Source: a virus
Strand: one strand, 5' to 3'
Virus record (IMG/VR): IMGVR_UViG_3300007754_000004
Coordinates: 20,413-84,412 of that record
Length of the DNA stretch: 64,000 bases
Both the position numbers and the translations under genes were made by a program. The notes under the pieces were generated by a model. It saw nothing but the letters and a program-made list of their open reading frames with translations. It had not been told where the DNA came from and did not search any database. Positions 15,681-37,341 of the stretch are shown piece after piece. The first letter of the stretch is position 1; the number at the start of each line of letters is the position of its first letter.

Positions 15681-16437
15681 AGAAGAGGATCGAGTAGGCG
15701 GCGAGGTATCTCTTCGTGGACGTGCTTCGGTTCACGAAAGCGAGCCTCAAGGTGGCGGACTTCACGCAGAAGCCTGTAGGCTCCAATCTGCCTACCTGCG
15801 TCCAGGCGAGCCCGTCATTGAGACTCAGGTGGACCTCAAAATCCCCAGGCTCCTGGTTGGTCTCCGTGACGGACTTGACCGCGGGGGAGTTAGTCCCGCT
15901 GGTCGCCCCGTAGGAGGATCGAATGTCGTGGCTGGTGGAGAAATCATAGATCTGCCACCAGACCATAAACTCGTCCGCCCCGACGCCGCTGGTCTGAGCT
16001 GAGATATCAATGGAGTCTGTGACTACGCAGCCGGGGCGAACCGGTGTCACCATGGCATTCTGGGAGAGGATCGCAGTCATACAGGGAGCGGTGCCCGTCG
16101 CTGCGGGGCCCGTACCCCGACCTGTCTGCACCCGAGCAATCGCGGATCCCGGCCCGGTGGTGCTGAGGTCCAGGTCAGCCACGTCGGATGCAGACAGGAG
16201 AGGGTTGAAAACGATGTTCCCGTATTGGGGATACTGAGCGAGTAACCCAGCTTGAGCCAAGCTGGAGACGTCTCCCCCATCCACAGGAGAGATGTACGAA
16301 GCCGGACCCACCTCGACCTTGGCCCCATCCGGGACGGGAATAATGAACTTCCCGTTGAATGGAGTGGGATCGCCCACCGCCGGGGTCTTCTCGACCTGAA
16401 GAATCTTCAGATCTGCGAAGTTTCCGAGGATCCTCAT
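15679..16437 (-). CDS. virion protein, 252 residues, partner of the giant 3412-residue protein
   Basis: ATG 16437 overlaps the end of the giant gene (ATGA), so the two are translated together. The product is beta-rich with few charges, Thr/Ser/Gly-rich stretches (TGRGTGPAATGTAP) and a C-terminal domain with WWQIYDFSTSHDIRSSYG, EPGDFEVHLSLNDG and a final TKRYLAAYSILF strand. It resembles receptor-binding or carbohydrate-binding beta-sandwich tips in composition only. It may form the distal part or cap of the structure made by the giant protein. Confidence 0.6.
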   Translation of the reverse strand: MRILGNFADLKILQVEKTPAVGDPTPFNGKFIIPVPDGAKVEVGPASYISPVDGGDVSSLAQAGLLAQYPQYGNIVFNPLLSASDVADLDLSTTGPGSAIARVQTGRGTGPAATGTAPCMTAILSQNAMVTPVRPGCVVTDSIDISAQTSGVGADEFMVWWQIYDFSTSHDIRSSYGATSGTNSPAVKSVTETNQEPGDFEVHLSLNDGLAWTQVGRLEPTGFCVKSATLRLAFVNRSTSTKRYLAAYSILF

Positions 16438-19400
16438 CGGTCATTCCCCAGGTGGTTGACGTTCTCCACATAGGCGGTGCCGTCTGCGGTCTCGACCTCA
16501 AAGGCCGCCTTCACGCTACCCACCCAGCAACCCGCTCCGGTGGAATTGGTCACGTCGCCATTACCCGCGGTGATTTCCAGGTACACCCGAGCCCCTGGAG
16601 GCAACATAGACCCAGATGGGGCCGCGATACCGTACCTCTCCAAGATGTAGTCCAGCCAGTTGCCCACCTTGAAGGGCCTGTCCTTCGGACGGAAGCTCCC
16701 AGGAGTCAGCCGGCGACCGAACTTCTGGATGCTGGCCGAGTCCGTCGCGTCGAAGTCATCCCCAACCGGGGTGAGCGCGATCGTGAAGGCGTGGGGACAG
16801 GTCGTAGGGACATTGTTGATCGCTGATCCGGCGTTGATATCCGGAGCCTTCGGGTTCTCGCCGCCATGAGCGACCACGATCCCTGTCAACGCCTGCGGGC
16901 AGACAGCAGGCGGGGTCGTACCCGAGAAATCATCCATGTCCGGCCAGAGACCGCTGGTGAAGGCCGAACGAATTCCGCCGCTCGTAAGGGAGGACCGAGG
17001 CAGAGGGCTTGCGAGCACAAGGGAGTCATCCCGAGCCCCCCAGACGCTCGCCGTGAAGTCCTGAGAGCCCCAGACAATCGGGTTGTGGGCGTTCCCCAGA
17101 TAACTGATGGAGCCGTGAAGGTCGTTCGCTGAGGACTCACTGGAGCAGCCGAAGCCGTACTCGGGATCTCCGGTACGCCAGTCAGACTCCGCGCCTGGAG
17201 TGTTGGAGGGGCCCGCGTCCACCCAACGCTCCATCACGTTGGGCATGATATCCCCGGCTTCCCGGTTCACGTACAGGGGAACCACGACGGCACCGCCCGC
17301 CTTGTGAGTCCCTGTGTTGTCGTCGTGGTTGTACATGACCGTAGGAGCCCGGCCACCGAAGGGGCTGATTCCCGGACCTGAAGCGTAGGGGTGCTCCTCA
17401 AGGGAGATCCCCGACTTGAACTCGCGGGCGTGTGAACCCGGAAGCTCCACGATCAGGTTGAACGCCATGTAGTAGGGGGCCAACGGATCACCGCTGGTGT
17501 CCACATAGCCCGGGGTGGCTTCCTCACCTCGGCTGGGGAGATTGTTGCCCCAGACGCCGAAGTTTACCCAGAGCCGAAGCAGTCGAGCACCCTTGGGCTG
17601 CTTCCCCGGGAAGGGAGAGGCGATTCCGCCACCCGGCTGCATCGCCTGGGTGAAGGCGTCCGTCAGGTCCACCCGGAGGGTGGGCATCGGCTCCTCTGCG
17701 TCCCGCTGGTTGTCCGGGCTGGGAACCCAGAGCTGCCACCAAGCAGGTCCAGGAGTCCAGACGTAATTCCGTCCGGTGTCCGCATTCCAAAGCAGCGTAC
17801 CCGTCCGGCCGGAGACCATTGACCGATCCATCAGTACCCAGGGCGTCGAGAGATCGAACCCAAGCCCCGAGGTGGTGTTGGTCATCACCTTGGGCCCTGT
17901 TCCAACATCTACGTCGCCAGAGGTCGTGGCTCCCGGGACTACCCAGGTGCTCGACTTCATGTTGTTGGGGGAGATGGTGACGATCCGCTCGCGAGCGACC
18001 GGCTGGATGGCGTACTGCATCACGTAGTTGTGTCCCCGAGAGGGGATCTCCCCCGACACCGTGTCCGGCCAGAATCCATAAACCCCAAGAGGGGAATAGA
18101 GCAGAGGCCGACCTCGTCCTGAGTCTCCGTTGGTACCAGAGACCACTCGACCCACCTTGATCAGCTCAGTGTAATACTCCTCGCAGTCTCCCCCGAGGAT
18201 CAAATCCGCGGTGGTCGGGCACCGGTTGATCCGGAAGATATCCACCTGCTCGTCGATATCATCGCCAGGGTACGGGTTTCCACCCACCCATGCCTTCGTG
18301 GTCAGGGAAGCCCCTGCTTCGGACTGCGAAGCCAAGAGCGTGTTGAACCGGTACTTCGCCGGCCTCTTCAGGTGGACATAAGACCCCGAGTGCTCTTCCG
18401 TCAGGGGAGCTGAGAACACCCACCGGAGACCGGCAGCGGCAGACCGAGAGAAATGCTGGCTGTTGTCTACGATGGGGAGAGCGTTGTTTCGATCACCGAA
18501 GCCCCGGTCAAGCTGAGAGGCGTGACCCGGGTAGGAGTGGAACCCGATCGACATGGGATCACGAGCGTTCCCCGCTGTCGGCATCGTGTGACCGGTAGAC
18601 GTAGAGAGCCACTCCACCCGGAGTGCTGCCCGGTTGCCTGTCACCTGAGCCGCTTGGGTAGCGGTGAGCAGGCTCAGGTCGTAGGTGACCTCCAGGGAAG
18701 CCCCGTTGCTGGACCAGACAATGAACTGAACCCCGAAAGAGGTCGAGAGCCCGTTGAACGCTGCCGTGCTGTTCAACAACGTCACGATCCCATCCGGGTC
18801 TGCGGAACCCGGAGCCAGGATGGTAGGCCCAGCCGTGTAGAATGAAGCCCCGGTGTTGTCCGTAATCCACAGGGACATGTTGCCGAAGTCACCCGGCGTC
18901 CCGGACATGAGAGATTGATTCGTCCGGAAGTTGCTCGCAGCCTCAAGCAAAGGAGCCCGAGCGACCAGCGGAAGAGCCCCATCGAAAGTGGTGGAGTGTT
19001 TCTTCGCGTCACCCTCTCGACGAAGCTTCCGAACTACGGCTACCGAAGTCGTCAGAGCCGCATTTGCTCCGGTCCCGTCGAACTCGTTCACAATAGCTGG
19101 CTGGACCTCGTAGTTGTCCAGCACGTCAATGACGACCCACCATCCCGTGTACTTATAGTTGTACGTCCCGCAGATGTAGATCATCCGACCTACATCCCCC
19201 GCTCCGAAGTCACCCCCAGGGGGTTTGAAGGAGTACCGGGTGGAGTAGAAGATCGCGTCGGCGGAGTCGATAGACGTCGTGGGATCCGTGGCGTCCGTCC
19301 ACGGCGGAATGAGGCCGCCCCCTACTCCCCGAGGCCCGAGCACCGGGACAAACTCCACGTTCGGAGTGATCCGATACCGGTGACCCACCAGGGGCCGACG

Positions 19401-22400
19401 AACCTGCTCAATTTCCTGATCCGAAGCAGCGACCACGACGGTGACCGTGTCAATCCGATCACCGAAGCCGTTGGAGGTACCGTTCACCGTGTCCGCTTCC
19501 GGGTCTTCGCTCACGTCCACGTAGGGCCCGATATCGTAGACCACCTGAAGCTCGTTGGTCACGCCCCCGTGGTTGATGGTAATGCTCCCGTTGATCGGAC
19601 CGCGGGTGCCATTCCCCAACTCTCCGGAGAGGGTGTTCACGTTCGTGTAAGCGAACTCTCGACCCAGGTGCCCGGCGGTGAAGAAGCACCCGTTGGACAC
19701 ATCCTCGATGACCATCCCATCGAGGATCCGCATCTGCTCCGCGGTCCCGCTATTGGGGTAGTCCCCCGTAACGCTGCGGCTGCGAGAGTGCCGGTACGCC
19801 TGAGACAGGACCCCCGGACCTGCTTCGTGGGAAGCCGGCCCTTCGGTCCTGTCCCCATCCTTGGTCCTCTCCGCGGAAGAGAAACACATCTCGGGGCTGA
19901 TTCCGAAATCCGTGGTCTTGTTGGCCCGGAATTCATACAGCGGGGTGTCCGTCGGGGTGCTTCCCACCGCGGTGTCGGTGACGAAATCCGCCCACCCGCT
20001 ACCCGCCATCGTCGGGGGGCCCTTCGGGAGGAGGAGACACTCCCCGAATGTCGGGACCTCAATCCCACGGATACCCGAGCTGGGTGCCCCCAGAAGGGCG
20101 TTCATACCCTGGTGACCACCCTTGGCGTCGATTACCCGGAAGGGCCTCTCATAGCGGACGGTACCCGGCGAGCGGAACCTGATGCCCGACCAGGGAGCCG
20201 GGAAGAGGCTGTCATTCGGTGTGATGTGGATATTGGGTTCGTCCGTACCTCCCAGATCAGGACTGGTCCTGGCGATGAGCAGTCGGGCGGGGCTCGCGAA
20301 TGAACTCGCCGCGACAGCGTTCTCCTTCAACCTGAAGGGCAACCCCTGAGCCGCTCGGGCATCTTCAAACTGGAGAGAGCCGTGGGGGCCTACGACCGTG
20401 GCGTCCTCAAAGAATTCAACAGTGTTGAACGTAGAGGGGACGCTGGGGGCCCCGTGGCTCCGAGACCTGAAGTGGGAGGTCAGGGGCCACGCCGACGCCT
20501 GACCGACGACGGAGAATCCCGCGAGGGTCTCCATCTCTACCGGACGGGGAGTTGCCCGGAAGGCGGAAGCCATCACCAGACCGAGGCCGCCATCCAACAG
20601 GACACCGGGACCAAGTCGCTGAGTGTGTCCGACGAAGCTGACACGCCCCGCCCTGTCCATCGCGAATTCTCCCCAGGTGCTCGCAGAGGAGAGGTCGTCG
20701 AGCCCGTCAGCCCGAGCCGTCGCATGGACTACCGCTCGGGCATAGACGTGGTGGGTGGTGGTCGTGCCGGGAGTCCCGGACCAGGAGAACCAAGCGTGGC
20801 TGGTGACCCGTCCCCGGGAGTCTTCAGAGGATCGAATACCCAACAGCCGAGCCGCTCCTGGGAGCGGCCAGCGATCGGTACCCGGACCATCCCGGAAGAC
20901 CGGGATCATCTCCATCGGGAGATCTTCCCGCCCGAGCCAGCTCGGATCCAGGCTCATCCCGTGGATGCCCTGCGGGGCACCAGTCGGAGAACCTCCGGGA
21001 TCCACTACGTCCGCGACGTAAACCTTTTCCGTCGCCTGGATATCCGCGTAAATGCCCCAGGGGTGACCCTGAAGCTGGTTGGCCCGGACACTCTCCGGAA
21101 CAAAGCTTTCAAGGGTCGCCGCGACGTTAGCATCATTCGCAGGCGGGACCGCGTACCTCTCAACGCGGAGCTGGAGGACAGAGACGACGGCGGAGGCCGG
21201 GAGAGTGCCGTCTTCCATGTCCCGGATGTTTGCGGTCGATCCCGTCTGACCGGTCGCGAGGGAAGTCAGAGCCGGGAACTTGCTCTCCAGCTCAGCACTC
21301 AACCCGGACATGGTGATCACCGGAGCCCCGACGATCCTCCACACCCCGTTGTTGTTGTCGCTGGTGTATCCCCCAGACGTATCCTCAAGCTGGAGATACT
21401 TGCCCTCAAGGAAAGGCATCAGGACAGGCATGTCCGGATTGCCAACCCACCACGCTGCCCGAAGAGCACCGATCGCGTCGGCCCCCCGGATCAAGTCGTC
21501 CTGGGTACCGGGCCAGTCAAGCTGACCCGATGCCATGAGGAAGGCGTGGAGGTCGGCCCGGGTCAGACCCAGGCTTACCGTCGCCTCCTGAATGAACATG
21601 GTCTCGGCAGCACTACCCGCTCGTCGAGCAGCTCCGAAACCGGAGATCGCGTGAGCCATCCCGTTGTCGTAGCCACCCGTTGCAGCGGGGCCGACCTCCA
21701 TGAGGTTCCACCCGACGGAGCCCTTAACGGCCAACATCCGACGGACGTAGGCAGTCGCCTGCGTGGAGGCCAGAGGGCGGGGATTGGTCAACCAGATCTG
21801 AGCGTCACCAGACACCCTGAGACCCGCCACACCGCCGACATGGGCTCCCCCGGCGTAAGACCCCTTGGGGAGCCTCTGGAGGCTCTCAGAGGTGCTCTCA
21901 CCGGTCGCAAGGCCCTGATCGTAAACGCCACCTGAGTCCGGGGCGGGCCAGTCGAGGTTACCCAGGGCGACCGAAGTCGAAAAGACCCCGCTCTCAAGGA
22001 AGGTGGTGGTGACCTGAAGAGGGGAAGCCGCGAGACCCTCTCCCACAACCGGCGTGGTAAACGAGACACCGGGGAGAGCTGAAGGCCCGATCAGGCTGAT
22101 GAGGTCTACTCGACCTCCGCCGACCAGGACACCGGAGAATGAAGATGTAGCTGTGGTGTCTGCCGAGCCTCCGTCAAGCCCCTGTCCGTACTCATCCGAC
22201 GTGTTGGTCAGTGCCGTATTGGCGTGCTTCGCCAGTGACCTGAAAGCGGAAGCGAACTGGTTGAATCCCGGTCGGGGAATGATCGAGACTTCCAGGTCCG
22301 TCGAAGCGGTGTTCGCCGTAGGGGAGAACGCTCCAATGGACGTGGGCTGGAAGCCCTGAGGGAGGAGATGACCATCCGTGGTCTCGTAAGTCCCTCGGGA

Positions 22401-25400
22401 GACCACCAACAGCTCGCCCGTGTTGGTAGAAGTATCCCAAGCCAGCACCCGCCCCTCAAAGGCTTCCGTGGTGCCGTCCCTGATGCCCGTAACCAGATCC
22501 CCGGCGGCGATCGAATTGGGAGCCACCGAAGGTGAGTCGAACTCCGTTCCAGTCGCCGTCACCTCGATGAGGAAGGACGGGTAGCCGACCTGGGAAGTCG
22601 CTGTCAGAAGACAGGAGAACCCCATCTCCCCATGCGGGGAGAGACCGTAGCTCACCCAGATATCCGCGAGTCCGGCAGCGGAACCCGTCGTCCGGTCGAT
22701 AACCGTCAGATCCTCGGCACCCCAGACCCACCGGCCCATGTAGCCGTACTCATAACCCTTGTCAGGCCACGCCTGAGCCGGCGTCGATCCCGGCTCCAGG
22801 TCTGTCCCCACTTGGAAGACCGGCGCCCGACGAGGACCAGCGAACCAATCCGAGCCATGCCCGCGAAGGATCTCGATCCGAGCCCGAAGAGGACTCGATG
22901 CCGTGCTCTTGACGCGGTGAGATCCGACGAGATGCCCTAGCGGACGAACACCATTCTGGGAGAAACCGAGATCCGTGGCTCCCGAGTTGGCCGCCGCTTC
23001 CGAAGGGAAGTCACCCGCAACCGGAGGCGAGGGAGTGTCATTGGCGTCGTCCCCGAAAAAGAGCCCACAGGTGGGGATCTCGTAAGGGTCCGGGTCGAAG
23101 TCCCCAGCGAGGAGCCCCGCGATATCCCCTGACGAGTCCTCCGCGTTGACTCGCCCGACCTCAATCATGACATTGTAGAAGTCCTGAGCAGACGCGCTAG
23201 CGTCACCAGAACCCCACCCACCGCAGATGAGGCAGACCGTCTCCGAGCCCGTCGGGTGACGGGCATCCCCTGGTCCAATGAAGAGGAACTGACGCTCTCC
23301 AACAGGGGCTCCAGTCGGAGCCGCGATCGACCCGGCAGCGGCACCGCCAATCCAGGCGTTCGGGGAAGCCGAGACCCCCGCGGGGGTCTCGTAGAACCCC
23401 GCATCGTCCAGCTTGTCCCCAACATACCCGGCGTAGGTGGTCTCGTAGAGAGCCTGATTCAGGAAAGCTGCGACCTCATCCGGATCCGTGGACGTGATCG
23501 TCGTGTCGTAGTTCAGAACGAGGGTAGCCCACTTGCTGCCGTTGTCGTTCTTGGGATCTGCGGAGAACACCGACAGAGCGAACCCAGAGGCCACGCTGGT
23601 GGTGAACGGGTTGAGGGCGTTGATTACCTGAGACTCCAGGTAATACTGAGCCGGGAGGACCCGGACCTGTCGGCCGGACACAAGGAGCCGCTCAGTGGCC
23701 CCACTCCCCTCCGTTGTTGATGGAGAGGAGGCCGGGGTGAGCCCGGAATAATGGCTGTTGATCGCCGTCTGGATATCAGTGGGGCTATCACTCCCCACCG
23801 CCGTGTAAGCGAACCAGTTGAGGGGGTTCGCGGGGGCCTCGGCATACTCCCGGGCGGTGATCAGCTTCCCACCAGCACGCCCGAAGATCTTAGCGTCTAC
23901 CACCAGCCGCACACCGGCTACCAGCGGCGTCCAAGAGGCGTTCTCTGCCGACGCGATGGTGGAGCCTTCCACCACGGCACAGAGCCCCGCCACGTTGGTC
24001 GGGAGAGCCGTCTGGAAGACCGAAGAAGCCTCATCCACCACGAGGTCAAACTGATTCGGCGGGGAGGCAGAATCAGGGATCGTAGCGTTAACCGAAGAGA
24101 CCTGCTCCACTCGGTTGAGGAACCGGGTGCTGGAGAGCGTCCCGGCTGCGAAATCTAGCGACAAGGAGGCGTAGAGACGTCCCCTCGCCACCTCCAACCC
24201 GACCTCGTTGTCCTCAGAGTCCGAAGCCCAGGAGGGTGCTGTGGTCGTCCACCGGTTCGACTTCGTATCGAGGAAGAGACGGGCCACCTCTGACGAGCCG
24301 CCCAGAGGGAAGCCCGCCCTCAACTCCGCCGCCGGCCCCTGGACCGCAGTTGGGGTGATCAGCAGAGAACCATCCGGCTGAGCCGTCAAATCACCGTAGG
24401 CGATTCGCCATGTACCTGACCGCCACTTTGCACCATAGGTGGTATCCAGGCGGAGATCGCCGTCGCCCTTCCTCAGAACCACGGTCGCCGGAACGGTGAA
24501 CGGAATGGCGGCGTCCGTCGCCACACCAGTCAGGTCAAACGTCGTACCCGTGACGTTCCCGAGCCCGGTCCAGAAAATCCGACCCTGGCTCAACCCGAGA
24601 GGGCTTCCCCCCTCGTAAAGCACTTCGGCGGAACCCGTCTCCGGCCAGTTGGCCGAGTTGGTCCCCGTCAAGGTCATAGTGTGCGGGTTGCTGCCAGCCG
24701 CATGAGCAGTCAGCGTCGCGTGAACCCGACCCCCGAACACATCCCGCTGCGTCGCGGAAGAATAGCCCAGGGTCGCGGACTCCAGATCGCCACCCGTGAC
24801 CCGTAGCCCCACGCCCGTCTGCCCTGACTCACGGGAATACGGGACACAGGCAGCGAAGAGCACCACCTCACCCCGAGGGTTGTTTCCCCCGGAACCGATG
24901 ATCCCCGCCGGGACAATCGCCCCCCCGGAGGACGCCGGGGGTGCGTGGGAGAGGTAAACGAGTCCGCCAGCGTAGTCCACCTCGATGAACTGGCTGTCTG
25001 TAGTGACCGAAGGATCGATCACCACATCCCGAGTGTAGATCGGCCGGCTGAAATCCGGGACCGCGTCCCCACCGCCGTCATCCTTCGCAGGGAAGAGCAC
25101 CATCCGGAAGCCCAGGTCCAACAAGCTCCCAGGATCCGCCTGCCCGGTCCCGGATTCTGTATCGAAGATGGACCGATCCGCCCGACCCGGGCTCCCGCCA
25201 GAAGGCACCTTGCCGGAGGCATCGATCTTGGTCGTTCTGCGGACCCACTCCGGATCGATCAGATTCCCGAGCCTCGCCGCCTCAACCCGGTCCAGATCGA
25301 AATCACCCGTGAACAACTCGCTGATGGCATCGTGGAGCGTGAAAGTCACCTCCACCTTGGCAGCACCGGTATGCCCCGTGGTGTCAAAGTAAGGACCGGG

Positions 25401-26672
25401 GCCGAAGAAGTACCGACCCGTCGCCGGGTCCACTTCAGGCAACCTCTTGAGCTGGTACTCGTCCGCGGCAGAGGCGTCCACGATCTCGTAGTAGCCAAGA
25501 AGGGCCGCCTCATCTCCGTGAGACAGGGCCGCCCCGTCTACCAGATTGACACCCGTGACCCGGACAACCTTGCCGGCGTCTCCCGCAACGACAGGGCTCC
25601 CCGCAATATCCTGAATCCGCCAGATCCCAGGACCGTCAGCAGGGGTGCCGCCGCCGTATTCCACCACACCTTGCATGGTCCTGCGGGCTACAGGGATGGG
25701 CGTCGCCGCCTGTCCGCCGTAAGAAGCCACCTCACCTGCCGTTGAGGTAGCCTCAAACCCTCCGTCCTCCCACACCTTGTAAGGAGGGTAGAAGCCGGAA
25801 GAAGCCGTGTTCTCCGGCGGCACCACGACAAAGATCCGCTCCCGCCCCACTGCGGGGCCGGAACCCGGCATACCAACCAGCCTCGTAACCTGAGGCTGGA
25901 AGAGCATGATGGAACGGAGGGCCGGGTTCAAAGGAATCGTGAAGACGCTGGACAACCTCTTTTCAGAGGCCAGCGTGATCACCCCGCCCGTGTAGGAGGA
26001 CACCCGGAAGATTTCAAACCGAGCGGACCCCACATACTTGCTCAGCGGAGTCAGCCCATTGACCCCAGCCGCCAGGGTGCCGTCCACGGATCCCGTGTCC
26101 GAGATCACCAGATAGAGGCCCCCGTTGTAGGCAGAGATCCCCGTCCCGGAGAGGTTGTAGGCTTCTGCGAGATCGGCGGCAGACCGCGAGCCGCTAGGCC
26201 CGTCCGCCATCGTCAGAGTGTCATTGTTCCCTACAGATCCGACCGTCCACTGCCAGTCGCAGAAGGGAGAGGCCTTCGTGGGTCCAATGACATGGAAAGC
26301 GATCGGGTGACCGAGCAGCGAGGGGCCCTTTGGCCCGAACCGATGGGAGCCGTGGTCATAGGGCCTGAAGTTAATCTCAGGGTGGCCCGCGAGACCAAGT
26401 CGAGAGTCGATGGTCTGAACGTCGTGGGGGAACGCCGTCGCTGTCGATCCGCTCTTGTCCGCATTGCTGGAGTCGGGCTCCTGAGTCGCCTGGAAGCTCC
26501 GCTCAAGAGAACCAGCCCAGGAACCAGCGAGACCCGAGACGACCTCACTGCTCTGAATCTGAGCAACGCGGCTCAGATGCTCCTGCCAAGCCTCGCGAAC
26601 GAAATCCGTGGCAGCCCTGTTCTCCAGAGCCTTGCGTAGGCGGATCAGGGTTTCGTCGTCACGAGTCGCCAT
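16434..26672 (-). CDS. giant virion protein, 3412 residues, probable fibre or adhesin-like appendage
   Basis: The largest gene in the window, starting at ATG 26672 behind a late-type promoter. The N-terminus is helical (LIRLRKALENRAATDFVREA) and probably anchors the protein to the particle. The rest is a very long Gly/Ser/Thr/Asp/Pro-rich, beta-predicted array with few Lys. Recurrent modules of the 'xxxGxxxI(V)xxVxxxxxY' kind are visible, such as LLGYYEIVDASAADEYQLKR, NNNGVWRIVGAP and GWWVVIDVLDNYEV. Embedded segments with SPTDIQTAINSHYSGLTP hint at carbohydrate-binding or beta-helix parts. No catalytic motif or signal peptide was seen. Its size, order within the structural block and composition indicate an appendage rather than an enzyme. 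The whole ORF is uninterrupted over more than 10 kb. Confidence 0.75.
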   Translation of the reverse strand: MATRDDETLIRLRKALENRAATDFVREAWQEHLSRVAQIQSSEVVSGLAGSWAGSLERSFQATQEPDSSNADKSGSTATAFPHDVQTIDSRLGLAGHPEINFRPYDHGSHRFGPKGPSLLGHPIAFHVIGPTKASPFCDWQWTVGSVGNNDTLTMADGPSGSRSAADLAEAYNLSGTGISAYNGGLYLVISDTGSVDGTLAAGVNGLTPLSKYVGSARFEIFRVSSYTGGVITLASEKRLSSVFTIPLNPALRSIMLFQPQVTRLVGMPGSGPAVGRERIFVVVPPENTASSGFYPPYKVWEDGGFEATSTAGEVASYGGQAATPIPVARRTMQGVVEYGGGTPADGPGIWRIQDIAGSPVVAGDAGKVVRVTGVNLVDGAALSHGDEAALLGYYEIVDASAADEYQLKRLPEVDPATGRYFFGPGPYFDTTGHTGAAKVEVTFTLHDAISELFTGDFDLDRVEAARLGNLIDPEWVRRTTKIDASGKVPSGGSPGRADRSIFDTESGTGQADPGSLLDLGFRMVLFPAKDDGGGDAVPDFSRPIYTRDVVIDPSVTTDSQFIEVDYAGGLVYLSHAPPASSGGAIVPAGIIGSGGNNPRGEVVLFAACVPYSRESGQTGVGLRVTGGDLESATLGYSSATQRDVFGGRVHATLTAHAAGSNPHTMTLTGTNSANWPETGSAEVLYEGGSPLGLSQGRIFWTGLGNVTGTTFDLTGVATDAAIPFTVPATVVLRKGDGDLRLDTTYGAKWRSGTWRIAYGDLTAQPDGSLLITPTAVQGPAAELRAGFPLGGSSEVARLFLDTKSNRWTTTAPSWASDSEDNEVGLEVARGRLYASLSLDFAAGTLSSTRFLNRVEQVSSVNATIPDSASPPNQFDLVVDEASSVFQTALPTNVAGLCAVVEGSTIASAENASWTPLVAGVRLVVDAKIFGRAGGKLITAREYAEAPANPLNWFAYTAVGSDSPTDIQTAINSHYSGLTPASSPSTTEGSGATERLLVSGRQVRVLPAQYYLESQVINALNPFTTSVASGFALSVFSADPKNDNGSKWATLVLNYDTTITSTDPDEVAAFLNQALYETTYAGYVGDKLDDAGFYETPAGVSASPNAWIGGAAAGSIAAPTGAPVGERQFLFIGPGDARHPTGSETVCLICGGWGSGDASASAQDFYNVMIEVGRVNAEDSSGDIAGLLAGDFDPDPYEIPTCGLFFGDDANDTPSPPVAGDFPSEAAANSGATDLGFSQNGVRPLGHLVGSHRVKSTASSPLRARIEILRGHGSDWFAGPRRAPVFQVGTDLEPGSTPAQAWPDKGYEYGYMGRWVWGAEDLTVIDRTTGSAAGLADIWVSYGLSPHGEMGFSCLLTATSQVGYPSFLIEVTATGTEFDSPSVAPNSIAAGDLVTGIRDGTTEAFEGRVLAWDTSTNTGELLVVSRGTYETTDGHLLPQGFQPTSIGAFSPTANTASTDLEVSIIPRPGFNQFASAFRSLAKHANTALTNTSDEYGQGLDGGSADTTATSSFSGVLVGGGRVDLISLIGPSALPGVSFTTPVVGEGLAASPLQVTTTFLESGVFSTSVALGNLDWPAPDSGGVYDQGLATGESTSESLQRLPKGSYAGGAHVGGVAGLRVSGDAQIWLTNPRPLASTQATAYVRRMLAVKGSVGWNLMEVGPAATGGYDNGMAHAISGFGAARRAGSAAETMFIQEATVSLGLTRADLHAFLMASGQLDWPGTQDDLIRGADAIGALRAAWWVGNPDMPVLMPFLEGKYLQLEDTSGGYTSDNNNGVWRIVGAPVITMSGLSAELESKFPALTSLATGQTGSTANIRDMEDGTLPASAVVSVLQLRVERYAVPPANDANVAATLESFVPESVRANQLQGHPWGIYADIQATEKVYVADVVDPGGSPTGAPQGIHGMSLDPSWLGREDLPMEMIPVFRDGPGTDRWPLPGAARLLGIRSSEDSRGRVTSHAWFSWSGTPGTTTTHHVYARAVVHATARADGLDDLSSASTWGEFAMDRAGRVSFVGHTQRLGPGVLLDGGLGLVMASAFRATPRPVEMETLAGFSVVGQASAWPLTSHFRSRSHGAPSVPSTFNTVEFFEDATVVGPHGSLQFEDARAAQGLPFRLKENAVAASSFASPARLLIARTSPDLGGTDEPNIHITPNDSLFPAPWSGIRFRSPGTVRYERPFRVIDAKGGHQGMNALLGAPSSGIRGIEVPTFGECLLLPKGPPTMAGSGWADFVTDTAVGSTPTDTPLYEFRANKTTDFGISPEMCFSSAERTKDGDRTEGPASHEAGPGVLSQAYRHSRSRSVTGDYPNSGTAEQMRILDGMVIEDVSNGCFFTAGHLGREFAYTNVNTLSGELGNGTRGPINGSITINHGGVTNELQVVYDIGPYVDVSEDPEADTVNGTSNGFGDRIDTVTVVVAASDQEIEQVRRPLVGHRYRITPNVEFVPVLGPRGVGGGLIPPWTDATDPTTSIDSADAIFYSTRYSFKPPGGDFGAGDVGRMIYICGTYNYKYTGWWVVIDVLDNYEVQPAIVNEFDGTGANAALTTSVAVVRKLRREGDAKKHSTTFDGALPLVARAPLLEAASNFRTNQSLMSGTPGDFGNMSLWITDNTGASFYTAGPTILAPGSADPDGIVTLLNSTAAFNGLSTSFGVQFIVWSSNGASLEVTYDLSLLTATQAAQVTGNRAALRVEWLSTSTGHTMPTAGNARDPMSIGFHSYPGHASQLDRGFGDRNNALPIVDNSQHFSRSAAAGLRWVFSAPLTEEHSGSYVHLKRPAKYRFNTLLASQSEAGASLTTKAWVGGNPYPGDDIDEQVDIFRINRCPTTADLILGGDCEEYYTELIKVGRVVSGTNGDSGRGRPLLYSPLGVYGFWPDTVSGEIPSRGHNYVMQYAIQPVARERIVTISPNNMKSSTWVVPGATTSGDVDVGTGPKVMTNTTSGLGFDLSTPWVLMDRSMVSGRTGTLLWNADTGRNYVWTPGPAWWQLWVPSPDNQRDAEEPMPTLRVDLTDAFTQAMQPGGGIASPFPGKQPKGARLLRLWVNFGVWGNNLPSRGEEATPGYVDTSGDPLAPYYMAFNLIVELPGSHAREFKSGISLEEHPYASGPGISPFGGRAPTVMYNHDDNTGTHKAGGAVVVPLYVNREAGDIMPNVMERWVDAGPSNTPGAESDWRTGDPEYGFGCSSESSANDLHGSISYLGNAHNPIVWGSQDFTASVWGARDDSLVLASPLPRSSLTSGGIRSAFTSGLWPDMDDFSGTTPPAVCPQALTGIVVAHGGENPKAPDINAGSAINNVPTTCPHAFTIALTPVGDDFDATDSASIQKFGRRLTPGSFRPKDRPFKVGNWLDYILERYGIAAPSGSMLPPGARVYLEITAGNGDVTNSTGAGCWVGSVKAAFEVETADGTAYVENVNHLGNDR

Positions 26673-26717
26673 GCAATTAGCTCCCGGTAGCCTGAGGCAC
26701 CTCTACCGAAGGGCCGG

Positions 26718-26731: not shown

Positions 26732-26738
26732 TTGAGAG

Positions 26739-26766: not shown

Positions 26767-26786
26767 CCAGCAACCGGAGTAGATAA

Positions 26787-27215
26787 ATGAGTCTCTTCCT
26801 TTCCCTGGTCGTCGGGGCTACCCTGCTCGCCATCCTCCTCGCGGGCTCCCTAAAGCAGAAGCCACGGAAGCCGCCCCCCCTCGCCCTGGTAGGACCAGCC
26901 CCGTACATCGGGCCGGCGACCCACACCCACTCCTCAATGGGGACTCCCTACGGGAAGGAGCTGCCCTGGCAGGAAGCCACCCCGGACGGACACCTCGCGT
27001 GGGCTCACGTCCTGCTGGGCTCCGCTCCGCTGGATGAAGGAGCGGGCTACTTCCACAACGTCGGCCACGAAGCTGTCGTGCTGAAGACGGATCTCTCGCC
27101 GGAGCTGGTGGCAGCGTCCATCGCAACCACCTCTGGGCTTCAGGGGCAGGTGCGACGCAGCGGATCCTACCCGAACACCTACCGCTGGATCAGCTACGAG
27201 GTCTCCTCGACGGAG
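26787..27215 (+). pseudogene. 5' part of an interrupted membrane-anchored protein gene
   Basis: ATG 26787 follows CCGGAG and an accessory promoter. Codons 1-143 encode an N-terminal TM anchor (LSLVVGATLLAILLAGSLKQ), a basic Pro-rich linker (KQKPRKPPP), and a soluble domain with EGAGYFHNVGHEAVVLKTDL and SYPNTYRWISYEVSSTE. At 27215 the native reading ends and the frame runs on for about 270 codons antisense to the downstream methyltransferase, to 28037, which cannot be native coding. Joining codon 143 directly to the sequence from 30149 restores an uninterrupted 163-residue protein ending FGTYTRFSIEVRRLT. The intact protein would be a small membrane-tethered phage protein of unknown role. I call it a gene disrupted by the cassette. 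Confidence 0.75.
27041..27215 (+). repeat. 175-bp direct repeat, left copy
   Basis: Identical to 29974-30148 except for one base, G at 27157 against A at 30090 (Arg124 to His). The offset between copies is 2933 bases. It is a coding segment of the interrupted gene, and marks the left edge of the methyltransferase cassette. Confidence 0.95.
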
Positions 27216-27254
27216 TCGGACGACTGCTCCATGGAGTGTGTATCCGAAGGTCTC

Positions 27255-28358
27255 TTACCAACCGAGCGAGAGTTGACCTCCAATGCCCTTTCGCACCACT
27301 TTTCCGGTTCTCCGCCGCTCCAAGGCCACCAGCACCGCTTCCCCAAGCCGCCGAGCCAAGAGGGGGGGCACGGCATTTCCCACTTGGTGGGCAGTTGGTA
27401 CAGTCTTGCCAACAAAGATGAAATCGTCGGGGAAGCTCTGAAGACGAGCGGCCTCACGCATGGTGATGTTCCGGTCGGCCACCGGGTGGGCGAAACGGCC
27501 GCGGGTAAAACTATTACACTTGGTGGTGATGGTTCCCGCAGGCTTATCCCAGTGGAGACGACCGTAAACGCCTCGGTGGCCAGCCTTTTCCACGCTGACC
27601 CGGTGACATGGAAGACGGAGTTCCTCGGGGATATCTGCTCGGCCGCCGCCCATTGGGACGTGGGAAATACGCCGGCGATTCTGGGCCGAGATGTTGTCTC
27701 GGTTGTGATTGGGAATTCTGGATGCGGCCTCCGGACGGGCAAACGGACACGGAAGGTCGCCTATAGCGTCACGAACTGTAGACCACGACTCCGAATTGTG
27801 GGTCGGTTCCGGCCAAATGAAAGCCTTGGGGCGATCGACTCGTTCGCCGACCAAAAACGCACGTTTTCGATGTTGAGGCACACCAAAATCAGCGGCATTC
27901 AATGTGTTCACATCGGTTCGGTAACCGAGAGTTCTTGCAAATTCAATCGCTTGAGACAATTGCGCCTTGCCCCTCCTGTTGCGGATGGCGGCGACATTCT
28001 CCATGATGAAGAACTCAGGCTCCATCTCACCAACTAACCGAATGAAATCGAGTACGAGTTGGTTTCGATCGTCTTCGTTGCTTCCCCGTCGCTGTCGGGA
28101 AAAACCCTGACATGGAGGGCCGCCGACAACAAGAGCGGGGTCTCCTCGATACAAATTAGCCTTGGCGAGCAGCATGTCCCCATGTAGCGTCGAGGCATCA
28201 GCCTCCAACACATGGTCGCCGAGGTTGTGGCGGTGGGTTCTGACGGCCTCCGTGTTCCAGTCGAAGGCGGCGCCTAAGCGGAAGCCGGCTTGGAGCAAGC
28301 CAAAAGCGAACCCGCCGGCTCCGGCGAAGCAGTCGATAGCAACGGGAAGGTCGCTCAC
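27255..28358 (-). CDS. DNA (cytosine-5-)-methyltransferase, second of a pair
   Basis: 367 residues from a GTG overlapping the stop of the upstream methyltransferase (GTGA). C5-methyltransferase motifs occur in order: motif I DCFAGAGGFAFGL from residue 9, motif IV GGPPCQGFS at 79-87 with catalytic Cys83, motif VI ENV at 120-122, motif VIII QHRKR at 162-166, motif IX around REAARLQSFP and motif X GNAVPP at 327-332. The target-recognition region between VIII and IX is about 130 residues, so one short recognition sequence is likely. It methylates C5 of cytosine in DNA with S-adenosylmethionine. No restriction endonuclease gene accompanies it. Its 3' end lies 40 bases from the left repeat. Confidence 0.95.
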   Translation of the reverse strand: MSDLPVAIDCFAGAGGFAFGLLQAGFRLGAAFDWNTEAVRTHRHNLGDHVLEADASTLHGDMLLAKANLYRGDPALVVGGPPCQGFSRQRRGSNEDDRNQLVLDFIRLVGEMEPEFFIMENVAAIRNRRGKAQLSQAIEFARTLGYRTDVNTLNAADFGVPQHRKRAFLVGERVDRPKAFIWPEPTHNSESWSTVRDAIGDLPCPFARPEAASRIPNHNRDNISAQNRRRISHVPMGGGRADIPEELRLPCHRVSVEKAGHRGVYGRLHWDKPAGTITTKCNSFTRGRFAHPVADRNITMREAARLQSFPDDFIFVGKTVPTAHQVGNAVPPLLARRLGEAVLVALERRRTGKVVRKGIGGQLSLGW

Positions 28359-29656
28359 TTGAGCCTCTTGGTGTGCTTGCGACCAGGGATGCTGCTCGAG
28401 AACGAGTTGCTGGTCGGCTCCAATACATCACCGTCCGTGTTCATCTCGACGACCTCGTTCGGATCGCGGGACAACTCCGTCAAGATGTGAGCAGCCAGAT
28501 GAGCGGCGAATTGCGGCGGCACGGCGTTGCCAATCTGCTGAAACCTGTCGTCAAATGGTCCCTCAAACATCCAAGAGGAGGGGAAGGCTTGCAACAGGGC
28601 CGCTTCTCGGATGGACAGGCCACGGTCTTGTTCCGGATGAACGTACCGACCGCTGGCCGGATTGCGGGAGTAGCCGGTGATCGTGTTGGCAGGTCGATCC
28701 CAGAACATGCGCCCGTAAACATCACGGTAACCATCCACTCTGTCGAGGCACTTTGGACCTACGCCGGGTGGTCTTGAGCCGCCGTCCTTGGGGATTTGTC
28801 GAATCGTAGCGACGGTGCTGGCTCGGTGTCGGGTACAGGCATGCATCGGATCGTCGGGTGACGGGGAGCGGGGCCCGATGGGAGGCAGGTGCCCAATGGC
28901 GGAGCGTACGGTGCGGTAGTCAGCGCTGTCGGTCAGGAAGGGGTCAGGCATTCGGAATGGGCGTGGAGAGGCCAACACCAGGGCTCGGAATCGGGCCTGA
29001 GGTACACCAAAACCAGCAAGGTTGTGGATGCGGGCCCGCACAATGTAGTCGGGATCGAGCAATTTCTTCAGGGACTGAAAACGGTCTAAGTACTTATGAG
29101 CCAGCAACTCCGGCACATTTTCCATGACTATGAAGTCAGGGTTGAGACGGCGTGCGATGCGAGCAAAGGCGTCTACGAGGTGGTTGCGTTCGTCAGATTC
29201 CCGGCGAAGGCGCTTTCCGTGAGCGGAGAAGCCCTGACACGGGGGCCCCCCGATGAGAACCTTGGGGGCCCCCGAAACGAGGCCGAGGCTACTCAAGAAG
29301 TTGTCGATGTTGTCATCGGATGCCGCGACAACGGCCAGATCTTCTCGTCGCACCCGTACCGGCAGGTTGCGGTCGAACGTGTCGGCCGCGTGGGGGTCGA
29401 GGTCTGCCGCACCCGCCAGTCGGAAACTGTTGATAGAGCGCCCGATAGCTTCAAAGCCGGCAGCAAGCCCACCACAACCGCAGAAGAGGTCAATGACTTC
29501 GATCGGGCCGGAGGCCGGGGGGGCTTGAGGATCGAAGGCGGCGACAGCCTGCTCCGCTATCGCGCGGAGTGGATACCGAGCCCCTTCTCCGCCTTGGCCC
29601 TCTCGACTTGTGGCCAACGGTTTCGGCTGAATCTGGCTGGACGGGACAATTCTCAT
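28355..29656 (-). CDS. DNA (cytosine-5-)-methyltransferase, first of a pair
   Basis: 433 residues from ATG 29656, which overlaps the TGA of the regulator gene (TGATG); a longer in-frame form starting at 29779 would run inside the regulator and is unlikely. Motif I is DLFCGCGGL at 56-64, motif IV GGPPCQGFS at 136-144 with catalytic Cys140, motif VI ENV at 179-181, then FGVPQARFRALVL (motif VIII), REAALLQAFP (motif IX) and GNAVPP (motif X). A 50-residue N-terminal extension rich in Gln/Arg/Pro and a basic C-terminal tail (GRKHTKRLK) flank the core. It differs clearly from the second methyltransferase, so the pair is not a recent duplication and may recognise different sites or strands. Confidence 0.95.
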   Translation of the reverse strand: MRIVPSSQIQPKPLATSREGQGGEGARYPLRAIAEQAVAAFDPQAPPASGPIEVIDLFCGCGGLAAGFEAIGRSINSFRLAGAADLDPHAADTFDRNLPVRVRREDLAVVAASDDNIDNFLSSLGLVSGAPKVLIGGPPCQGFSAHGKRLRRESDERNHLVDAFARIARRLNPDFIVMENVPELLAHKYLDRFQSLKKLLDPDYIVRARIHNLAGFGVPQARFRALVLASPRPFRMPDPFLTDSADYRTVRSAIGHLPPIGPRSPSPDDPMHACTRHRASTVATIRQIPKDGGSRPPGVGPKCLDRVDGYRDVYGRMFWDRPANTITGYSRNPASGRYVHPEQDRGLSIREAALLQAFPSSWMFEGPFDDRFQQIGNAVPPQFAAHLAAHILTELSRDPNEVVEMNTDGDVLEPTSNSFSSSIPGRKHTKRLK

Positions 29657-29865
29657 CAGGGCTGCTTCCGGTTGACGGGGTCGAAGAGGGGGCGTTGTTC
29701 GGGGAAGCCGACCGCGTCCAGGTGTTGCTTGATCAGGTGATCTGCAAACGTGCTTTTCTTGCGGCATGTCTGCTCGCAATAGGCTTGGTAGCGCTCATAC
29801 TCAACAAGGCTGAGGCAGACGGTGATGCGTCGAGTGGTCTGGTGCTGTTTGCTCTCCGCAGGCAT
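29656..29865 (-). CDS. ribbon-helix-helix regulator of the methyltransferase operon
   Basis: 69 residues from ATG 29865, chosen because GAGAGGAGC lies seven bases upstream and because the longer TTG start at 29916 would place translation inside the promoter. After a polar N-terminus the sequence RRITVCLSLVEYERYQAYCE reads as a beta strand plus first helix of the CopG/Arc fold, followed by KKSTFADHLIKQHLD as the second helix. Such proteins bind short operators as dimers. Three regularly spaced TGCGC boxes lie across its promoter, so it probably represses its own operon and thereby limits methyltransferase levels, as controller proteins of restriction-modification systems do. Family assignment is by pattern only. 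Confidence 0.75.
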   Translation of the reverse strand: MPAESKQHQTTRRITVCLSLVEYERYQAYCEQTCRKKSTFADHLIKQHLDAVGFPEQRPLFDPVNRKQP

Positions 29866-29886
29866 GGGTCGCTCCTCTCTCCCGGC

Positions 29887-29954
29887 AGTATAACAAGCCT
29901 GCACAAGATTGCGCAAAACATCTCAAAAGTGCGCACTCTTACGTCATAGTGCGC
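29887..29954 (-). promoter_or_regulatory. sigma70-like promoter with three 20-bp-spaced operator boxes
   Basis: On the minus strand TTGCGC (29911-29916), 18 bases, TATACT (29887-29892). TGCGC starts at 29910, 29930 and 29950 on the plus strand, exactly 20 bases apart, about two helical turns. The first box overlaps the -35 element. The middle box is a perfect 10-base palindrome (AGTGCGCACT). This is unlike the phage promoter families in the rest of the window. Confidence 0.7.
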
Positions 29955-29973
29955 TATTCGCCGAAGGAAGCGA

Positions 29974-30148
29974 AGCGGGCTACTTCCACAACGTCGGCCA
30001 CGAAGCTGTCGTGCTGAAGACGGATCTCTCGCCGGAGCTGGTGGCAGCGTCCATCGCAACCACCTCTGGGCTTCAGGGGCAGGTGCGACACAGCGGATCC
30101 TACCCGAACACCTACCGCTGGATCAGCTACGAGGTCTCCTCGACGGAG
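29974..30148 (+). repeat. 175-bp direct repeat, right copy
   Basis: Copy of 27041-27215 with a single base difference. Just before it the sequence reads GAAGGAAGCGA, against GAAGG in the left copy, so weak homology extends a few bases further with a six-base indel. Confidence 0.95.
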
Positions 30149-30211
30149 GCCCGACGCCGGGACTTCGGAACCTACACCCGATTCTCTATCGAAGTCCGGC
30201 GCCTGACATAG
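29974..30211 (+). pseudogene. 3' part of the interrupted membrane-anchored protein gene
   Basis: Contains the duplicated segment in frame, then 21 further codons (30149-30211) encoding ARRRDFGTYTRFSIEVRRLT and a TAG stop. It lacks promoter, anchor and a good start; the nearest in-frame start is a TTG at 29909 inside the regulator's operator region, without ribosome site. Its natural 5' half is the fragment at 26787-27215. The last 26 bases overlap the 3' end of the lipoprotein gene on the opposite strand. Confidence 0.75.
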
Positions 30212-30964: not shown

Positions 30965-30978
30965 ATATAGGGGGTTTA
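30965..30978 (-). promoter_or_regulatory. possible late-type promoter before the lipoprotein
   Basis: Minus strand TAAACCCC-CTATAT, five of six matches to CTATAG with the conserved TA eight bases upstream. Overlaps the stop region of the 1004-residue virion gene. The complement also reads CGTATATA on the plus strand, so the orientation is not fully certain. Confidence 0.4.
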
Positions 30979-33900
30979 CGAGCGGATAATTTCCAAACCC
31001 ACGAGGCCGCGGAGGTTATCTACGGTGCCGCTGCTACCCCCCTGCTCCAGGTTGAGGGCCTTCCCTCCGGCGGTATCCTTGATGATAACCTTCACGAGGA
31101 CCGGGACGGTCCCTTCAGCGGAGACGAAGAGAGTCGCCGCTGGACCTACGTGGACCCGCACCTGACACTCCACAACGCCCGAGACAGCGTCCACATCATC
31201 AAACGTGGCAGGTCCCGTGACCTGACAGCCGGCTCCATCTTGGAAGGAATCCTGCTTGCTAGGGCCGGCACCGTCGCCCCGCCCAAGGTCCATCCAGGTC
31301 GTCCGTCCAGGGACCTTGACCAGGATAGCAATCTCCGGAGCCCCAGGCCCGGGAGGATCGTAAGCGAAATCGTTGAGGAGAAGGCCCTTCACCTTGAGAG
31401 TGAATAGGGCTGAACCTTCGGCTGCAACCGGGGTACCCGAATTCTTGAACCCTACATCGAAGGCTCGGATGTAGATCCGGTCTCCAGTCTCCGAGCTGTA
31501 ATCCGGCTGGTCTGCGGCGATATCAGAATCCCCTGAAGGACCGGAGGGACGCATCCCGGAGCTGTAGTCGTGCTGGGGGAAAATCAACACGCCTGCGCTG
31601 GGGAAAGCAGACGCCACCCCGTCCGAGAGGGGCGGGTTCCGATCCGGGAGACCCGCGACCTGAAGCTCTCCCGCAGGGATGGAGCTGAGATGGTTCCCAA
31701 GCTGCACCCAGGAACTCGTATCGTAGCCCGAGACCGCCGTAGTCCCCGCTCGTACAGGGACGTCAATCGCAGAAGAGGCCCCGCCGAGCCCTGGCCCCAC
31801 CAGGAGAGCCTGATCTCCCGCCGACACCCCCGGGAAGGTAGCATCATAGCGGTAGACCTCATCAAGGAACCGCTCCTCTACGTCCTTCTGAGCCGTCTGA
31901 GTACCCGCCGCCGCAGTGGTCGCCGTCGCGGGGTTGGCATACACGGACTCATCGGTGCTGTGGAAGAGCAGGGTGTCCCCGTTGGTCTCCAGAATCGTTG
32001 TTCCATACACGGCCGTCGCCGCTGCGCTGTTCCCCAGGGGACGACGGATAAACATCCTGACCCGAGCATCCCTGGAGAAGCTGGGAGCCGAATCGTCCCC
32101 CGTGGGCTGGAAGCCTGTACCGGCGATCGTAAAATCAGCCTTGTCCGTGAGACCAGGAGGGGCGACCAGGGAGAAAGGACCGTCAGTGTCCCCGAGATGA
32201 GTCATGTTCATCTCAATCCGGCCTGCCTTGGACGTGCCTGTACCAGCGGGCACGGAAAAGGTCGTCCCCTGAGCGAACGGGCCCACCCAGAGGAAACCGA
32301 CGTCAGGGCCTTCCAAGCCAGAAGAAGCGGGGGTCCCGTTCCCCACTCGATAGCTGCTATCCCAGACCCCCGTCGCCTCCATCGGGAGCGACGTGATCTT
32401 CCAGGGGTTGAGCTGGGTGGACGGGATGAAGTAGCTGACACCGCTCAACACCTGGACGTTCACCGGAGAACCCGGGTCAAAGGTGTAGACCGTGTTGACA
32501 AACACGGGAGCCGCCGTGCCGTCATCATCCTCGATATGAGCACCGCGGACGATGCGGTAGCTCCCCGCCGGATCGAAGGGCGAGGAACCCGTGGAGAGGT
32601 TGGCCGGAAGCTCCACGTTGGTCCAATTGACGATATTGGCAGACCATAGGGCACTGTCCGCAGGGGAGGTGCCGTCCACCACGAGGGCCTCAAAAGCGGC
32701 CTCCGTCTTGAAGTGGAGGAGCAGGAAGGAGCCGATATCCCGGGCGTCGCCGCCAGCTACCGTGGGGAACTCGAACCGCTGACGGAAACGAGCCAATTGG
32801 AAGGTCCAATAGGTCGTCTCAAAATCGGTGAAATCACCCGCCTGAGTGAGATCCGTCCCTGCATTGAGGGCGATTGTCGGCTTGCTGAAATAGCGAGTCC
32901 GCTCTGCCGTCGGTGTGAATCGCAACCCCGTCGAGGTGCTGTAGTCGTTCAGGTAGGGCAACCTGTATCGGAAGAAGTTGTTGTCATCCCGGTTGTCCGC
33001 CGCTCCCGCGAGTGTGGGAGCCGACGCGGAGGTAGTTCCCCCGAGGATATCGAAGCCCAGACGGGTCATGCCGACCGTCGTGTCCGCCGCCGGGGGGGAG
33101 ACGCCACCCGTGGAAGAGACTCCCGTGTGCAACTCAGAGAGATCAAACTGACCTGTTGCTCGCCCAGGGAAGGTATAGGGATCAAAGCCGTCTGAAGTCG
33201 AGTCTCCCAGCGTGAACATCCCGCCCGGGTCACCGTCGCATCCAGAAACCTTCCCCGATCCAAGGGAGAGAGCGGCGATGCACCGAAGGTTCTGAGCCTG
33301 ACCGGTGAAATCCGCAAGGGTTCCTCCGGCTGGGAAGTACAGGAGAGCCAACACGCCTCGATCAGCGGGGTAAACCGCGCCGCTGACTACAGCGTAGCTG
33401 TTCCCTGATCCGGGCTTCGGCATCACCCGAGCGGTCTCGATGACCGCACTCCCCCGAGTGAACCCGCCCTGATAAGTGTCCCCTGAACCCCCGCCCGTAT
33501 AAGTCCCGTCCGCGACGTTGAAGGTGCTGTCCGTTGAGGGGTCATTCCCCGGCGTCGTGAAGCCGTCAGCGTACTTCGGGAGGACGTGGAAATAGGGGTA
33601 GATATCCGTGTCAGCGTTGGGGGCTGTTATGTCCGGACATGTCACCACACCATTAGCGACGAGGCCGGCGTCGTTCAGCTTCAGGACTCCCCAATCCGGG
33701 ACACCAGAGAACGTCAGGTAGCTGAGATCCTTCCCCAGACCAGGAGGTCGGGGCGGAACCAGAGCAGCCAGCTCGTCAAAACCCTCCTGCGTGCTGTCTC
33801 CGTCAAAGGAGCCCGACTCGTCTTCCAGAGCGATGGCTGACGCCGCGTGAGCGGCTGTCGGGTCATCAACATGCCCGCTGACGCTGGAAACCCCGCCCGC

Positions 33901-33990
33901 GCTTGGGGCAAGGGAAACAGCCTCAACGCTGTCCTGGGCAGCGAGACCCGACCCGACCTGGAGGTCACCGGGGTTGTTACTACGAGGCAT
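30976..33990 (-). CDS. virion or tail-fibre-like protein, 1004 residues
   Basis: ATG 33990 shares its A with the TGA of the upstream gene (TGATG). The N-terminal part has a DDPTAAHAASAIALEDESGS segment and TQEGFDELAALVPPRPPGLG. This is the 'ddxxxxHaaxaI..' plus 'vQeaLdeLa' linker type common in phage fibre and appendage proteins. The body is beta-rich and Gly/Ser/Thr-rich with long strands (TYWTFQLARFRQRFEFPTV). The C-terminal domain (AGSA-type turns, ATLFVSAEGTVPVLVKVIIK, LRGLVGLEIIRS) looks like a beta-sandwich tip. It is the last gene of a two-gene fibre operon. Its exact place in the particle is unknown. Confidence 0.7.
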   Translation of the reverse strand: MPRSNNPGDLQVGSGLAAQDSVEAVSLAPSAGGVSSVSGHVDDPTAAHAASAIALEDESGSFDGDSTQEGFDELAALVPPRPPGLGKDLSYLTFSGVPDWGVLKLNDAGLVANGVVTCPDITAPNADTDIYPYFHVLPKYADGFTTPGNDPSTDSTFNVADGTYTGGGSGDTYQGGFTRGSAVIETARVMPKPGSGNSYAVVSGAVYPADRGVLALLYFPAGGTLADFTGQAQNLRCIAALSLGSGKVSGCDGDPGGMFTLGDSTSDGFDPYTFPGRATGQFDLSELHTGVSSTGGVSPPAADTTVGMTRLGFDILGGTTSASAPTLAGAADNRDDNNFFRYRLPYLNDYSTSTGLRFTPTAERTRYFSKPTIALNAGTDLTQAGDFTDFETTYWTFQLARFRQRFEFPTVAGGDARDIGSFLLLHFKTEAAFEALVVDGTSPADSALWSANIVNWTNVELPANLSTGSSPFDPAGSYRIVRGAHIEDDDGTAAPVFVNTVYTFDPGSPVNVQVLSGVSYFIPSTQLNPWKITSLPMEATGVWDSSYRVGNGTPASSGLEGPDVGFLWVGPFAQGTTFSVPAGTGTSKAGRIEMNMTHLGDTDGPFSLVAPPGLTDKADFTIAGTGFQPTGDDSAPSFSRDARVRMFIRRPLGNSAAATAVYGTTILETNGDTLLFHSTDESVYANPATATTAAAGTQTAQKDVEERFLDEVYRYDATFPGVSAGDQALLVGPGLGGASSAIDVPVRAGTTAVSGYDTSSWVQLGNHLSSIPAGELQVAGLPDRNPPLSDGVASAFPSAGVLIFPQHDYSSGMRPSGPSGDSDIAADQPDYSSETGDRIYIRAFDVGFKNSGTPVAAEGSALFTLKVKGLLLNDFAYDPPGPGAPEIAILVKVPGRTTWMDLGRGDGAGPSKQDSFQDGAGCQVTGPATFDDVDAVSGVVECQVRVHVGPAATLFVSAEGTVPVLVKVIIKDTAGGKALNLEQGGSSGTVDNLRGLVGLEIIRS

Positions 33991-37330: not shown

Positions 37331-37341
37331 CCGGAAGAGGA

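Follow-up and report, generated by a model that had tools for sequence, protein, structure and literature searches.

A foreign C5-methyltransferase operon between 175-bp direct repeats in an interrupted phage gene: possible insertion with long target duplication

Introduction

How can a set of DNA modification genes come to lie inside a phage gene, between two long and nearly identical repeats, with no recognisable recombinase? This question is raised by a stretch of 64,000 nucleotides (hereafter the window), positions 20,413-84,412 of the IMG/VR record IMGVR_UViG_3300007754_000004 (G000, 84,412 bp), in which a 2,758-bp cassette carrying two C5-cytosine DNA methyltransferase genes, M1 and M2, and one small gene interrupts a phage gene of 163 codons. 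Insertion with long target duplication is a process known from bacteria, and its mechanism is regarded as unsettled. We consider, with slightly better than even confidence, that a foreign modification operon inserted into an accessory phage gene with such a long target duplication, and that it probably shields the phage DNA.

Results

Direct repeats and the interrupted gene

The cassette is bordered on both sides by a direct repeat (Table 1), 174 of its 175 bp being identical between the copies and the only mismatch being a G in the left copy and an A in the right one. A first-pass annotation of the window had reported this repeat with its one mismatch, and the 2,758 bases that it counted between the copies were indeed found. 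No 20-mer occurs twice on the same strand of the window outside the two copies, and the repeat is thus not due to chance. BLAST extends it 5-7 bp leftward, with two gaps, so that the left edge is sure only to a few bases; the edges were kept at 27041 and 27215. Local alignment of the 40-bp left flanks scores 9 and that of the right flanks 5, both scores being without a control. Removal of the cassette with either repeat copy restores 163 uninterrupted codons and a stop, which confirms the gene reconstructed at first pass. With the cassette present, the left fragment continues to 416 codons in total, antisense to M1, and the right copy sits inside a 100-codon open reading frame (ORF). The sole mismatch is a G/A difference at a CpG and could reflect the deamination of a methylated cytosine; one base proves nothing.

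The same structure was found in a second record. Record G001 (IMGVR_UViG_3300008954_000054, 62,081 bp) holds the whole window stretch 26000-31500 at 100% identity, with an identical cassette structure and the same G/A mismatch, and shows zero differences from the window over 22979-41990. Over 39951-61243, it differs at five places, three of them common to a third record, G003 (3300007504_000014, 52,688 bp), and two not; these single-nucleotide polymorphisms (SNPs) away from the insertion make G001 a second, distinct record. In exact scans of viral contigs, a 40-mer of the repeat was present in G001 and G003 only and one of the left flank in G001 only, the window's own record being possibly left out of both scans.

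The G003 contig does not contain the cassette: its first base is window position 29974, and its repeat is of the A type. The cassette is therefore directly visible in two records only, G000 and G001, and no viral contig from the sample of G003 was found to carry M2 or the left flank. The contig end fits a repeat having two left neighbours in that sample. An assembler can stop at the first base of the repeat with a pure cassette population or with a mixture including the empty allele, while a pure empty population gives no reason, from the reasoning of an assembly graph, for such a stop. The end of G003 does not separate the pure cassette population from the mixture.

The inserted operon

The operon is read on the minus strand in the order small gene, M2, M1, with an overlap of a few bases at each joint that suggests translational coupling. 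M2 and M1 match PF00145 at 8.8e-48 and 5.3e-60, respectively, and both carry, as invariant alignment columns, the catalytic motifs that we take to be PCQ, ENV and QxRxR. The 69-aa product of the small gene is likely, from a reading of its sequence, to be a ribbon-helix-helix regulator; its AlphaFold model is poor (mean pLDDT 64) and shows two helices, and no match to it was found among plasmids. Three candidate operators are located upstream of this gene, and a promoter scan near them found none, where 0.8 was expected by chance. The insert contains only the three genes described, with no restriction endonuclease gene beside the methyltransferases. In line with the statement at first pass that the cassette has no recombinase, none of the three operon genes resembles one; the remaining ORFs of the insert were not searched singly.

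The composition of the cassette is foreign. The tetranucleotide distance between the insert and the rest of the window is 0.321, against a mean of 0.173 and a maximum of 0.214 for 111 other windows of insert length, taken every 500 bp and overlapping. The GC content at third codon positions (GC3) is 0.614 in M1 and 0.678 in M2, below all 13 listed phage genes (lowest 0.706), while that of the small gene, 0.743, is not below the phage-gene range.

The insertion spot in related phages

A profile search with the 1,004-aa neighbour gave 56 loci, of which two (L061 and L062) are this phage and the other 54 were compared with it. As 19 locus pairs, including this phage's own, have a 60-mer in common, the 54 loci do not represent as many independent phages. 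In 43 of them, the beginning of the 3,412-aa neighbour is also present, and the two flanking genes are estimated to lie -46 to 113 bp apart in 41 of these 43. They lie 1,467 bp apart in the remaining two, L083 and L088, which have a common 60-mer. The gap of L083 (11733-13121) holds a 462-aa ORF with the Cas12f1-like TNB domain of TnpB-like proteins (PF07282, 28.9 bits, cut-off 26.3), and the presence of this ORF between the same two phage genes indicates that the insertion spot takes unrelated inserts. The 3,412-aa neighbour was not found in 11 of the 54 loci: the sequence stops too early in L072 and L108, and in nine further loci the 1,004-aa gene has different ORFs beside it, or a neighbour too divergent to match.

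The 163-codon gene, the 230-aa gene, M1 and M2 gave no match at E <= 1e-3 in the fetched stretches of the 54 loci, and the uninterrupted gene that the first-pass annotation proposed to look for in relatives was thus found in none of them. Because the flanks adjoin in relatives and its genes are unmatched there, the block 26673-30975 can be considered accessory, and so can the gene that the cassette interrupted. Viral contigs from outside this phage, the phage collection and seven related records (the last searched without a positive control) indeed gave no relative of the 163-aa protein. A nucleotide search of window positions 26000-31500 in the phage collection gave no match.

The related contigs extend up to 618,736 bp, the only match in the phage collection comes from an uncultured phage of 485 kb, and baseplate matches were found; from these sizes and matches, the window probably belongs to a myovirus-like phage with a very large genome. 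A further methyltransferase is possibly encoded at 13360-14775 of the window, where the C-terminal part of a 471-aa phage protein gives matches to several PHROGs families of DNA methyltransferases.

Table 1. Coordinates of the cassette, the interrupted gene, their neighbours and the related bacterial module (window positions unless a locus is named).
Feature	Position	Strand	Basis or remark
Phage gene for the 3,412-aa protein, bordering the insertion spot at the lower coordinates	16434..26672	-	
First 143 codons of the broken phage gene of 163 codons	26787..27215	+	in-frame join to 30149-30211
Left repeat copy, 175 bp, with G at 27157	27041..27215	+	sequence comparison
Inserted cassette, 2,758 bp	27216..29973	.	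foreign tetranucleotide composition
M1, C5-cytosine DNA methyltransferase, 367 aa, GTG start overlapping the M2 stop	27255..28358	-	PF00145
M2, C5-cytosine DNA methyltransferase, ATG at 29656 overlapping the stop of the small gene	28355..29656	-	PF00145
69-aa small protein, candidate ribbon-helix-helix regulator	29656..29865	-	by-eye sequence reading
Three GCGC-centred near-palindromes, 20 bp apart (GCGC at 29911, 29931, 29951), candidate operators	29909..29955	.	
Right repeat copy, 175 bp, with A at 30090	29974..30148	+	sequence comparison; G003 contig begins here
3' end of the interrupted phage gene	30149..30211	+	restored frame
230-aa accessory phage gene	30186..30878	-	no match in 54 other related loci
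Phage gene for the 1,004-aa protein, bordering the insertion spot at the higher coordinates	30976..33990	-	
Three-gene module (two C5-methyltransferases and a type IIG-like enzyme)	L021 3122-8972; L123 3192-8694		genomes of one bacterial class

Relatives of the methyltransferase pair

The best relative of M2 in genome contigs was found in a metagenome-assembled genome of Saprospiraceae (L021, 48% identity), where it is directly followed by a relative of M1 (42%) and then by a 1,059-aa protein. The same order was found in L123 (genome G037, of the same class), with relatives of M2 (43%) and M1 (42%) followed by a third protein, likewise of 1,059 aa, the two third proteins being 55% identical. 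Matches to M1 at E <= 1e-50 occur in 4 of 198 genomes drawn from this class, namely that of L021, G037, G043 and G205, the gene order having been read in the first two. For both third proteins, the best PADLOC models are type IIG restriction enzyme-methyltransferases; in Pfam, that of L021 contains an N6-methylase domain, with the strongest match to the Type ISP C-terminal specificity domain; among structures, it resembles PDB 7lo5, which we take to be a type IIL enzyme. No helicase domain was reported for this protein, which is why it is termed type IIG-like here. An N-terminal PD...EAK motif appears conserved between the third proteins in an alignment read by eye. No title describing this three-gene module was found among the literature matches listed.

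M2 and M1 are each closer to their positional counterparts than to each other, and the best reading of these alignments is that they share an ancestor with the first two genes of an M2-M1-type IIG-like restriction-modification module. The third protein of L021 gave no match in G000, G001, G003 or G209 in a search without internal positive control; the same query did match L021 and L123 in a separate tblastn.

The same cassette at other places, which the first-pass annotation proposed to search for, was not found outside this phage in the viral, genome, phage and plasmid collections. L127 (IMGVR_UViG_3300009008_002133, the record G209), a 26-kb viral contig, carries an M2-M1 pair with 65% and 65% amino-acid identity at 1470-3871; a phage gene resembling phosphoadenosine phosphosulfate reductase lies near it. 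Apart from the two methyltransferase genes, L127 and the window have no DNA match, and L127 has no match to the 69-aa protein. As nuclease-free pairs thus occur in two viral contexts, the cassette may derive from another phage, and not straight from a bacterium. A self-repeat check of 33 other methyltransferase loci found repeats in several, none established as a target duplication. One locus with a C5-methyltransferase, L038, is a 6,858-bp contig binned as Omnitrophota with 103-bp repeats at 48-150 and 6752-6854, and is possibly a small circular element.

Discussion

Origin of the insertion

A one-step, non-homologous insertion is preferred here because no donor carrying the phage segment is known. 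From a mechanistic point of view, a self-contained and foreign modification operon (small gene, M2, M1) would have entered an accessory gene between two large phage genes; the target gene would have been broken with its two ends offset by 175 nucleotides, and non-homologous joining of the insert into this offset break would have left the 175-bp target duplication. The size of the footprint fits a long target duplication, and the insertion is well preserved and probably recent. Recombination between the repeats would regenerate the intact gene and release a circle of 2,933 bp (the cassette with one repeat).

The first-pass annotation had proposed a different route to this structure, a single crossover of the Campbell type between the intact phage gene and a circle carrying the cassette with a 175-bp piece of that gene. 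Its description of a foreign methyltransferase cassette in a phage gene with a 175-bp duplication holds, while the crossover with a circle is not established, no donor having been found, and we regard it as possible, though rather unlikely. Its product would look identical, the 174 of 175 identical bp fit homologous exchange, and relatives of M1 (about 42%) are found on small plasmids of 4.5-6 kb. Against this, neither the cassette nor the 175-bp segment was found outside this phage in the viral, genome, phage and plasmid collections (metagenome contigs lying outside the search), and the donor would need to have acquired its piece from this phage lineage beforehand, since the interrupted gene is known only here. 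The 2,933-bp circle is the expected product of later recombination between the repeats and not necessarily such a donor. That the cassette behaves as a reversible module, excised in part of the population as this circle through the 175-bp repeats and restoring the phage gene, then perhaps re-entering or moving among phages of the lineage, with modification and the interrupted gene as alternative states, seems to us unlikely, although the contig end of G003 is compatible with such a mixture.

The same final structure would also be reached in two steps, by a 175-bp tandem duplication within the gene followed by the joining of a foreign segment at its junction. Nothing in the sequence speaks against this, but two events would be required, the second placing the insert precisely where the duplicated segments meet, and neither G001 nor G003, the only records given by the exact repeat scan, has a bare tandem duplication; we thus find it improbable. 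An artefact of assembly, joining an uninterrupted phage to a free circle of 2,933 bp (cassette with phage segment) through the 175 bp that they share, was weighed as well: the repeat is longer than common short reads, the G003 contig breaks exactly where an ambiguity of the graph would break it, and G000 and G001 may not be independent. Yet the same order and the same G/A mismatch occur in two records distinguished by SNPs elsewhere, and the free circle would itself need phage sequence, which is as unusual as the insertion, so that an artefact is still more improbable. Finally, a compact operon sitting cleanly in a gene could be the work of an active transposon or of a site-specific element, recognisable by its recombinase or terminal repeats. 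Target duplications of usual transposons are far shorter than 175 bp; moreover, there is no terminal inverted repeat (local score of 5 over 60 bp per end, reached by 998 of 1,000 shuffles) and no transposase or integrase among the three operon genes. Such an element is hardly credible here, in agreement with the view of the first-pass annotation that this is not a usual transposon target duplication.

Several observations weigh against insertion with long target duplication as the explanation of this locus. No empty allele was found, the 163-codon gene being unmatched in the other related loci and in the phage collection, and the pre-insertion state is consequently read from the restored frame alone; in this respect, the locus differs from the published cases. 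These cases, as described in the papers cited below, are bacterial, whereas the present one lies in a phage genome, with no restriction gene beside the pair. No long repeats surround the L127 pair, about 1.5 kb of its left flank being covered. As to function, methylation and protection are predictions. Searches of Pfam, PHROGs, NCBIfam and PADLOC gave no hit for the 69-aa protein, and the regulator named at first pass is a candidate by inference; the two methyltransferases named with it are supported by their family. A restriction gene may be present elsewhere in the phage, since the 84-kb record is probably a fragment.

Predicted function and significance

From its gene content, the locus could methylate and not cut, because the type IIG-like gene is not beside the pair. 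Two related C5-methyltransferases, one for each strand of an asymmetric site, are an arrangement found in type IIS systems. The pair would methylate the phage genome at the site of the module, thus protecting it in hosts that carry the nuclease, and the small protein would damp expression through the three operator-like sites. For a phage, the simplest use of modification without restriction would be to protect its DNA against a nuclease of the same site.

If inserted with a long target duplication, the cassette would show clearly, in a relative of very large phages, that modification genes can move with no recombinase in view. It would also indicate that a phage locus can hold the protective half of a host-type restriction-modification module without the other half, and it singles out a candidate family of nucleases for protection tests.

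Comparison with known systems

This class of event is already described, and what differs here is the phage setting and the nuclease-free pair. Target duplications that are long and of variable length were reported for inserted restriction-modification genes by Nobusato et al. (2000) and Furuta et al. (2010), as cited in PMC3874152, PMC1643837, PMC3031569, PMC3154945 and PMC4978471; the type case in H. pylori is shown in PMC1643837, and forms flanked by direct repeats are expected to amplify via unequal crossing-over (PMC3031569). As described there, the published cases have modification genes between direct target repeats of the order of 100 bp and no insertion sequence (IS). In line with them, the present insert has direct target repeats at both ends (175 bp, 174 identical) and neither terminal inverted repeats nor a transposase among its three operon genes; it carries two methyltransferases, while the type IIG-like gene is unmatched in the 84-kb record. 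Among the publications found with the term "long target duplication", none, judged by title, concerns a phage genome.

The L021 and L123 modules resemble the cassette by their two C5-methyltransferases in the same order, 42-48% identical to M1 and M2, whereas a type IIG-like gene follows there and not here; in L021, a helix-turn-helix domain is fused to M2, the cassette having a separate small protein instead. The viral pair of L127 likewise has M2 and M1 together, with no type IIG-like match in the 26-kb record. Phages encode orphan methyltransferases, and the cassette resembles these as a source of phage-borne modification enzymes without a nuclease. It differs from them as a tandem pair which mirrors two genes of one restriction-modification module and has its own candidate control region.

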